DNA of 64,000 nt, taken from NCBI RefSeq assembly GCF_026616205.1, contig NZ_JANHGR010000001.1:434001-498000 (forward strand). Direction: 5' to 3'. The position numbers and the translations under genes are program-made. Under the pieces are notes generated by a model. That model was not told where the DNA came from, did not search any database, and worked only from the letters and a program-made list of their open reading frames with translations. Position 1 is the first letter of the stretch; each line of letters begins with the position of its first letter. Positions 12,339 to 13,829 of this stretch are shown here, piece by piece. This DNA is from Halolamina litorea (GTDB lineage: Archaea > Halobacteriota > Halobacteria > Halobacteriales > Haloferacaceae).

Positions 12339-12387
12339 TGCTGGCTCCCCGATTTGAACTCCGGAAGACGTGCTCGCTTCGCTGCGC

Positions 12388-12492
12388 GCGACTTCCGTGC
12401 TCGAATCGGCTCGGGGGCGTTTTCACTGCTCACCGCTCGGTCGCTACGCTCCCTCACGAGTTCGTAGGAAAATGCCGCCTCCCCGATTTGAA
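12388..12492. repeat. 105-nt near-perfect direct repeat, copy 1
   Basis: Identical to 12674-12778 except for one base (T versus C in the ...TTCGTAGG... context). It runs from GCGACTTCCGTGCTCGAATC through to the tRNA-Phe 3'-end 20-mer. The match continues leftward to 12345 with an indel in a hairpin region. Confidence 0.9.
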
Positions 12493-12575
12493 ACGCGTGA
12501 GACTCCCTTCGGTCGTCTCACTGTACCCCGCTCGCTACGCTCGCGGGGACGGGGGACAGCTCGATCTTCAGTCGA
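12473..12575 (-). pseudogene. Split, truncated tRNA-Phe pseudogene
   Basis: On the minus strand, 12549-12575 matches 27 nt of the real tRNA-Phe anticodon arm through variable loop exactly (12778-12804), and 12473-12492 matches its last 20 nt. A 56-nt segment (12493-12548) with two hairpins separates them, at the position of the T-loop. The 5' third of the tRNA (acceptor 5' strand and D-arm) is missing. It cannot fold as tRNA. Confidence 0.8.
12497..12548. repeat. Twin hairpins with 11-nt loops inside the tRNA-Phe pseudogene
   Basis: Hairpin 1: GTGAGAC (12497-12503), loop TCCCTTCGGTC, GTCTCAC (12515-12521). Hairpin 2: CCCCGC (12526-12531), loop TCGCTACGCTC, GCGGGG (12543-12548). Both loops are 11 nt and fit TCNCTNCGNTC while the stems differ, so the loop rather than the stem is conserved. 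Confidence 0.75.
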
Positions 12576-12673
12576 AGCTCCCGAATGCGATCCGTGCGGA
12601 AAAGGTATGCCGCCTCCCCGATTTGAACTCCGGAAGACGGTCCGGGATGCTCGCTTCGCTGCGCTCCCGGGCT

Positions 12674-12778
12674 GCGACTTCCGTGCTCGAATCGGCTCGG
12701 GGGCGTTTTCACTGCTCACCGCTCGGTCGCTACGCTCCCTCACGAGTTCGCAGGAAAATGCCGCCTCCCCGATTTGAA
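12674..12778. repeat. 105-nt near-perfect direct repeat, copy 2
   Basis: Second copy of the 12388-12492 repeat; its last 20 nt are the functional 3' end of the tRNA-Phe gene. To its left is the hairpin CCGGGA (12642-12647) / TCCCGG (12665-12670) around a TCGCTTCGCTG core, enclosed by CGGAAG (12631-12636) / CTTCCG (12678-12683). Confidence 0.9.
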
Positions 12779-12832
12779 CGGGGGACAGCTCGATCTTCAG
12801 TCGAGTGCTCTCCCAGTCTGAGCTAAGGCGGC
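12759..12832 (-). tRNA. tRNA-Phe (anticodon GAA)
   Basis: On the minus strand the sequence begins GCCGCCTTAGCTCAGACTGG and ends in AGGCGGC plus discriminator A. The acceptor stem GCCGCCT/AGGCGGC is fully paired; the anticodon stem CTCGA/TCGAG encloses loop CTGAAGA, giving anticodon GAA; the T-arm reads CCCCG-TTCAAAT-CGGGG. No intron and no encoded CCA. A minus-strand TATA-like CCTTAAT at 12861-12867 lies 29-35 nt upstream. It is the only intact copy of the four 3'-end copies in this locus. Confidence 0.95.
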
Positions 12833-13517: not shown

Positions 13518-13755
13518 GTTCCTGCCCGTCGAGACTGCCCCCCGCCCAAAAGGTCTGTTGGCGGTTCGCTCGGATGGTTGACCGTTCCGGCGGCGTCGAC
13601 GCTGTTCGGGCGGGTTCGGACCACCGAGACTGTCGCTCGCTCAGGGGTAGTAGCCTCGGGCGGATTTTTAACCGCGGTCGCTCCCGTTCGCTCCCTGCTT
13701 CAGAATCCGCCCTCGCTGTCACTGCGTCGTGCTCACTTCGTTCGCACAGAAGTAG
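13518..13755. other. Non-coding stretch with a degenerate tRNA-Val 3'-end copy and hairpins
   Basis: At 13655-13667 the 13-mer CTCGGGCGGATTT repeats the tRNA-Val 3' region (13760-13772) at 105-nt spacing, and the following bases (AACCGCGGTC versus AACCACCGGTC) are related. An inverted part, AATCCGCCC, lies at 13704-13712 and can pair with GGGCGGATT. At 13729-13747 GTGC and GCAC enclose the 11-nt loop TCACTTCGTTC, the same loop type as beside tRNA-Phe. No open frame here looks coding. Confidence 0.65.
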
Positions 13756-13829
13756 TGGGCTCGGGCGGATTTGAACCACCGGTCTTCTCCATGTAAAGGA
13801 GACGTCATAGCCAACTAGACCACGAGCCC
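13756..13829 (-). tRNA. tRNA-Val (anticodon UAC)
   Basis: On the minus strand: GGGCTCGTGGTCTAGTTGGC at the 5' end and CGAGCCC plus discriminator A at the 3' end. The acceptor stem GGGCTCG/CGAGCCC pairs completely; the anticodon stem TCTCC/GGAGA encloses TTTACAT, giving anticodon TAC (UAC); the T-arm contains GGTTCAAATCC. No intron is visible. A TATA-like TTATTCG (minus strand, 13854-13860) lies 25-31 nt upstream. Confidence 0.95.

Follow-up and report, generated by a model that had tools for sequence, protein, structure and literature searches.

The tRNA-Phe gene of Halolamina litorea is followed by three short units, each of which ends in a copy of the gene's own 3' end. The locus lies within a window of 64,000 nucleotides, the whole stretch of DNA analysed here (contig 1, 434001-498000; genome G000, order Halobacteriales), and its features are collected in Table 1. 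The 21-nt 3' end of tRNA-Phe, GTTCAAATCGGGGAGGCGGCA, recurs downstream at start-to-start spacings of 134, 135 and 151 nt. The initial annotation had described the same repeats, with the last 20 nt exact at 12473 and 12608 and a degenerate version at 12339, and we confirm both the copies and their spacing. They exceed chance expectation, the 26-nt matches scoring 23, 22 and 21 compared with a best score of 17 in 20 Markov-randomised flanks. Units 1 and 3 are near-identical save for the length of the core hairpin, so the array consists of two kinds of unit in the order 1-2-1. The trailer hairpin of unit 1 likely serves as a new 3' trailer or terminator. Convincing coding is absent from all three units, in line with the earlier remark that they code for nothing; the listed open reading frames cross the repeats, the longest running through the tRNA itself. 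A second tRNA of the window, tRNA-Val (TAC), is likewise followed by a unit, built around a core hairpin termed beta and closed by a decayed copy. Rfam searches of the units matched nothing beyond the tRNAs themselves. A strongly folding RNA across the whole stretch was considered and ruled out (folding energy z -0.57), and the 60 nt preceding each copy are slightly more stable than shuffled sequences (mean z -0.70; 8/33 below -2).

Table 1. Features of the tRNA-Phe and tRNA-Val loci, with positions counted from the first letter of the window.
Feature	Position	Strand	Basis or remark
tRNA-Phe (GAA), target gene	12759-12832	minus	ARAGORN; Rfam, 61.3 bits
Duplicated block in tRNA-Phe, positions G53-N73	12759-12779	minus	boundary profile
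Unit 1 (type 1), 151 nt, tRNA-proximal	12608-12758	minus	terminates in a 21/21 copy
Unit 1 trailer hairpin, T-rich, TTTTCCTGCGAAC...GTGAGCAGTGAAAAC	12705-12758	minus	sequence; comparable trailers at other tRNAs
Unit 1 inverted arm AGCCGATTCGAGC, complementary to T-loop/T-stem of copy 1	12685-12697	minus	
Unit 1 core hairpin alpha, ACGGAAGTCGCAGCCCGG...CCGGACCGTCTTCCGGA, abutting GTTC	12629-12684	minus	
Copy 1 of the tRNA-Phe 3' end, 21/21, putative att core	12608-12628	minus	
Unit 2 (type 2), 135 nt	12473-12607	minus	terminates in a 20/21 copy
27-nt exact copy of the tRNA-Phe anticodon-arm/variable region, within unit 2	12549-12575	minus	repeat D4
Unit 2 hairpin H1, CCCCGCGAGCGTAGCGAGCGGGG	12526-12548	minus	module recurs at integrase-gene attR in L330, L333, L334
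Unit 2 hairpin H2, GTGAGACGACCGAAGGGAGTCTCAC	12497-12521	minus	sequence; fold
Copy 2 of the tRNA-Phe 3' end, 20/21, last 20 nt exact	12473-12493	minus	
Unit 3 (type 1), 134 nt, core hairpin shorter	12339-12472	minus	repeats D1, D2; terminates in a 19/21 copy
Copy 3 of the tRNA-Phe 3' end, 19/21, outermost and most decayed	12339-12359	minus	
tRNA-Val (TAC), second target within the window	13756-13829	minus	ARAGORN, Rfam
tRNA-Val unit, 105 nt, core beta GAAGCAGGGAGCG...CGACCGCGG	13651-13755	minus	
Copy closing the tRNA-Val unit, 16/21, decayed	13651-13671	minus	

Comparable units are found downstream of many haloarchaeal tRNAs. We surveyed the tRNA flanks of Halolamina litorea, its congener G003, the haloarchaeon G059 from another family and genomes of other classes of the phylum, counting as a copy any same-strand match to the tRNA's own 21-nt end of at least 16/21 within 600 nt downstream. 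Downstream copies follow 9/40, 15/40 and 5/19 tRNAs in the three haloarchaea, respectively (29/99 in total), so that roughly a quarter to a third of their tRNAs carry units. By comparison, upstream copies are present at 1/99 and opposite-strand downstream copies at 5/99 of these tRNAs, while the 3' end of another tRNA used as query gave 21 matches in 477 trials (4.4%). In the other classes of the phylum 1/45 tRNAs has a copy; this one case, at a tRNA-Ala-cgc (L318 in genome G061), is a plain tandem duplication of the 3' part and trailer, without the hairpin module. Unit lengths cluster between 75 and 178 nt with a median of about 119 (34 units from unselected tRNA sets, with distances up to 700 nt searched). 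Core hairpin alpha was detected in 19 of 53 searched Halobacteriales genomes compared with 0 of 242 in other orders of the phylum, and the reversed pattern in none. IMG/VR contains no matches to hairpin patterns alpha and beta, and more distant phage and plasmid searches returned only short matches to the tRNA part of the query; a viral origin was ruled out on these grounds. Another haloarchaeal genome (G038:C1, 2635124-2637763) holds a cluster of at least 12 tRNA matches, of weak to medium strength and all on one strand, over 2.6 kb, possibly a mobile tRNA array.

The duplicated block has sharp boundaries, and the inverted arm that precedes it is fitted to the host tRNA. For the analysis of unit anatomy we assembled 151 units from 109 loci and 31 anticodon classes (ARAGORN calls). 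Some of these were picked via the alpha pattern, and rates and body sharing are therefore quoted from unselected sets where possible. Across the 115 best units, positions between G53 and N73 match the tRNA with an identity of 0.91-1.00. No more than two bases beyond either limit, identity has reached background, and such a drop outside the windows could not be created by choosing them for identity. The copies track the local tRNA allele, carrying CGGGG or CCGGG at tRNA-Phe and AAATC or AATTC at tRNA-Tyr according to the gene. Type 1 units follow this order: a T-rich trailer hairpin, the inverted arm (T-loop and T-stem), the core hairpin and then GTTC to N73. The inverted arm fits the T-stem of its own host tRNA, the observed match being reached in 0/2000 permutations over all units and in 0/5000 with one unit per isotype. 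Of 150 core alpha hairpins, 97% form the outermost two pairs, compared with 59% and 46% with shuffled partners, and these pairs are made up of three and four Watson-Crick types.

Comparison of congeners reveals presence or absence of single units at precise positions. At tRNA-Val-tac, positions 1-99 of the Halolamina litorea flank align to positions 125-220 in G003, and the extra unit in G003 is 124 nt long, identical to the offset of 124. At tRNA-Leu-tag, positions 1-32 align to 115-146, with both unit and offset at 114 nt. The flank of tRNA-Tyr in G001 is empty, and G005 and G006 are offset from it by 122 and 147 nt, their exact unit lengths. Since offsets equal unit lengths, insertion occurs immediately behind the tRNA and older units are shifted outward. 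Unit order also varies: at tRNA-Phe seven species of the genus display 1-2-1, 1-2, 2-1-2, 2 or only a remnant, and the two kinds of Val unit are found in both orders. In addition, unit bodies are shared between tRNAs of different isotype. Among 34 units from unselected loci, with the tRNA copy removed, 45 cross-isotype pairs were detected at E<=1e-4 compared with 0 in the reversed-sequence control. One such core, GAAGCAGGGAGCGGGAGGTGAGCGAGCG...GAACGGGAGCGACCGTG, is common to Leu-taa of G003 and to an intron-containing tRNA of Halolamina litorea (L031) that ARAGORN labelled Pyl and that is probably tRNA-Arg. The initial annotation had named beforehand, as tests of a mobile element, the same spacers at unrelated tRNAs and empty sites in relatives, and both were found. 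It had also named two contrary outcomes, an arrangement fixed at this locus in all relatives and present nowhere else, and copies explained by one local slippage. The former does not agree with the varying number and order of units at tRNA-Phe, nor the latter with unit bodies that recur at other tRNAs.

Larger elements encoding a tyrosine recombinase occupy the same tRNAs and share the copied block. At tRNA-Tyr of genome G056, 4.75 kb encoding a PF00589/PF02899 tyrosine recombinase separate the array from the tRNA, and the recombinase gene directly adjoins a type-2 hairpin and a 21/21 copy. This recombinase family is present in 89/118 Halobacteriales genomes. An integrase with a matching att site, which the first reading had suggested looking for in the same genome, exists at the same tRNA in relatives; in Halolamina litorea three homologues are encoded elsewhere in the genome, and the window itself contains no integrase (best tblastn E 0.05). 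Among 30 fetched integrase loci, 25 have a tRNA 3' end (>=12/13) that reads on the outward strand and is no more than 300 nt 5' of the integrase gene, compared with 1, 0 and 2 for the three control placements. Several integrase loci bear the hairpin module right before GTTC, and one of them, L330, reads CTGTCCCC-GTCCCCGCGAGCGTAGCGAGCGGGGGCTCGGAAGACGAGCGCAGCGAAGTCTTCCGGCG-GTTCAAATCCGGGAGGCGGCA, which is nearly the type-2 unit of tRNA-Phe. Five complete integrase elements were delimited at tRNA-Phe or tRNA-Tyr (4.77, 8.50, 9.67, 2.71 and 2.62 kb). All five possess a 21/21 copy at the far end (attR), four have miniature units further outward, and three (L091, L356, L359) carry a hairpin before GTTC. 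The remaining two (L357, L365) and several integrase loci show a plain attR, and the hairpin is thus not obligatory for that integrase. At tRNA-Val-cac of an uncultured haloarchaeal MAG (L147), a 741-nt unit includes an open reading frame of about 81 codons, judged by eye, together with an alpha hairpin and a 21/21 copy. It is an intermediate between the miniature units and the integrase elements, and may be a miniature element that carries a gene. Some members of the integrase family adjoin just the final 13 nt (CCTGCAGCGCCCA) of tRNA-Arg-tcg (L339, L340, L343, L344, L348, L349, L354), which suggests a subfamily with a shorter att core.

We consider it probable that the units at tRNA-Phe represent integrative elements in miniature, about 115-150 bp long and devoid of genes, and that they belong with the haloarchaeal elements inserted at tRNAs by a PF00589 tyrosine recombinase. 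The att core would correspond to tRNA positions G53-N73, from GTTC to the discriminator base, and each element would comprise its own core copy together with a trailer hairpin rich in T and, immediately ahead of the core, a right-end hairpin. Recombination at the core would restore a complete tRNA, now followed by the trailer of the element, and shift the former 3' end one unit further out. Units would thus stack up through successive insertions at one tRNA, with the oldest outermost; displaced copies, free of selection, would decay, and units could also be lost via recombination between repeats. The very small, non-autonomous, repeatedly inserted tRNA-targeting element that the initial annotation proposed is largely borne out, and we infer its further suggestion, mobilisation in trans, by an integrase encoded elsewhere. 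Mobilisation may proceed through a circular intermediate, and the hairpin would act either as a recombinase site or as a structure re-forming that site. Counting against miniature elements, the window contains no integrase, and neither a circle nor an excision event was observed. Further weak points are the plain attR of several integrase elements, the many alpha hairpins located away from tRNA 3' ends, and the left ends of the large elements, which, L091 aside, do not resemble the miniature trailers. The presence of one body at different tRNA types also sits awkwardly with an integrase that needs each core to match, and moving a body from one core sequence to another would require either recombination among units or some form of copying.

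A more specific and, in our judgement, rather unlikely version treats the units as an archaeal counterpart of integron attC sites. By analogy, a single strand would fold such that the inverted arm and the copied T-loop/T-stem re-form a double-stranded recombinase site, and tiny single-stranded DNA elements would be captured serially at tRNAs, occasionally with a gene as in the 741-nt unit. A folded hairpin of this kind would account for the inverted arm. The units resemble attC sites and cassettes in having a folded hairpin beside the recombination point and in forming a head-to-tail array that grows at one end, and differ from them in lacking an integron integrase, the attC consensus and, mostly, a cassette gene. 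One of the integrase relatives scores 19.3 bits against the integron integrase model TIGR02249, for which the cut-off is 265, and the other relatives do not match it.

The main rival to miniature elements, which we likewise regard as unlikely for the units as a whole, is that large integrase elements inserted serially at tRNA-Phe and later lost their cargo by internal deletion, leaving their two ends as stacked scars. Type-2 units retain the tRNA anticodon arm, as expected of a displaced 3' half; the left end and right-end hairpin of L091 (tRNA-Tyr, 4.77 kb) match the neighbouring type-2 miniature units, and repeat-mediated deletions have been reported in Haloquadratum (PMC3119063). Some type-2 units are likely to be such scars. 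Several observations speak against this origin for the units in general. Independent deletions would not yield such uniform sizes, nearly the same body is found at different tRNAs and in different species, congeners differ by precisely one unit length, and, L091 excepted, the miniature trailers bear no resemblance to the left ends of the large elements. The stacked excision scars that the initial annotation offered as its alternative may explain part of the units, and miniature elements are preferred overall.

An independent origin of the hairpin is less probable still. The hairpin would in that case be a PATE/SMR-like module that inserts 5' of the T-loop of displaced tRNA ends, while the copies themselves come from integrases. 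Its position directly before GTTC is constant, and 80/126 alpha hairpins are located away from tRNA 3' ends, so the alpha hairpin is not exclusive to the tRNA units; the same two-hairpin module is also found in dispersed Halorubrum repeats. An independently inserting hairpin is at odds with the exact one-unit insertions, which carry hairpin, trailer and copy as one, and leaves the fit of the inverted arm to the host tRNA unexplained. The dispersed hairpins (L100, L104, L110, L124, L127, L155, L168, L172 and about 70 more) occur off tRNAs in Halorubrum, Halorussus, Haloparvum and other genera. They are part of longer structured repeats holding GGGACTSAAAGGGGC and GGGGCTTT(C), and at some loci the GGGGCTTT end recurs at a distance of about 55-70 nt. 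Rfam searches of these loci returned nothing.

It appears very improbable that the arrays arose without a mobile element, through local tandem duplication or template switching at the 3' end of the tRNA. The trailer is doubled along with the 3' end at a few loci (Asp in G003, Ile in G046), and the non-haloarchaeal tRNA-Ala case resembles plain duplication. The unit bodies, however, are not derived from the local flank and are common to different tRNAs, which the controls are not; core alpha is confined to Halobacteriales, and the block boundaries are too sharp. A selected RNA function of the downstream hairpins in tRNA 3' maturation, termination or regulation is hardly credible. In its favour, both the copies and the inverted arms follow the sequence of the host tRNA, and covariation is seen in the hairpin pairs. 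Against it, many tRNAs differ between congeners in whether they have units, distal copies decay, and the stretch as a whole folds with unremarkable energy.

The units share features with several described systems and coincide with none of them. CIMEs are kilobases long and carry genes. Like CIMEs and tandem accretions at bacterial integration sites, the units are att-flanked, integrase-free and arranged in tandem at one site; they lack a recombinase and are bounded by the att sites of an autonomous relative with the same core block, and type-2 units also match the right-end hairpin module of integrase elements at tRNA-Phe and tRNA-Tyr. In contrast to CIMEs, the units retain only ends, and a given small body is found at more than one tRNA. 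Haloarchaeal MITEs, PATEs and SMRs, described in Haloquadratum (PMC3119063), are similarly short, non-coding and palindromic and, as proposed for the units, mobile in trans. PATEs and SMRs do not duplicate their target, whereas the units duplicate a fixed 21-nt tRNA block and are located specifically at tRNAs, and this fixed duplication sets them apart from the group as defined by transposon-related ends or the lack of target duplication. Transposon ends were not among the features recognised in the units. With respect to casposons, the units are non-coding, and the recombinase carried by the relatives identified is of the tyrosine type. Simple tandem duplication would derive a whole unit from local sequence, which is not the case here.

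Among the closest known systems are archaeal elements that integrate at tRNAs. It is established that archaeal elements use tRNA 3' ends for integration and prefer various 5' limits (PMC8371274). Archaeal tyrosine-recombinase elements (PMC8371274), including the IGEs of Haloferax gibbonsii (PMC7921747), resemble the units in that they insert at a tRNA, rebuild it and have a copy of its 3' portion as their far end, and integrase-bearing relatives of the units are found at the same tRNA. The intact tRNA-Phe with its direct 3' repeats (21/21, 20/21 and 19/21) conforms to this pattern, while an own integrase is present only in the large relatives. Unlike these elements, the units are 75-240 nt long, non-coding and stacked, and between about one quarter and one third of tRNAs have them. 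In Haloferax gibbonsii LR2-5, 11 partial tRNAs were reported, several directly adjoining the full copy (PMC7921747), and these are probably the same objects as our units, noticed as remnants. The main text of that report describes no recurrent element with a hairpin, a unit size or insertion polymorphism. In the openly accessible literature we found, beyond this remark on partial tRNAs, no miniature or non-autonomous tRNA-targeted archaeal elements, and no account of the hairpin unit, its size, polymorphism or spread.

If this interpretation is correct, the partial tRNAs of haloarchaea would be members of a defined and abundant class of miniature integrative elements instead of unexplained remnants. 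They would rank with the smallest such elements known and would combine a precisely defined att core with a structured end, candidate recombinases being encoded in the same genomes. In genome annotation, a copy can be misread as a tRNA pseudogene or taken for the distal end of a genomic island. The units also offer a means of testing the limit of tyrosine-recombinase mobilisation on a 115-150 bp substrate, and of addressing why tRNA genes gather insertions.
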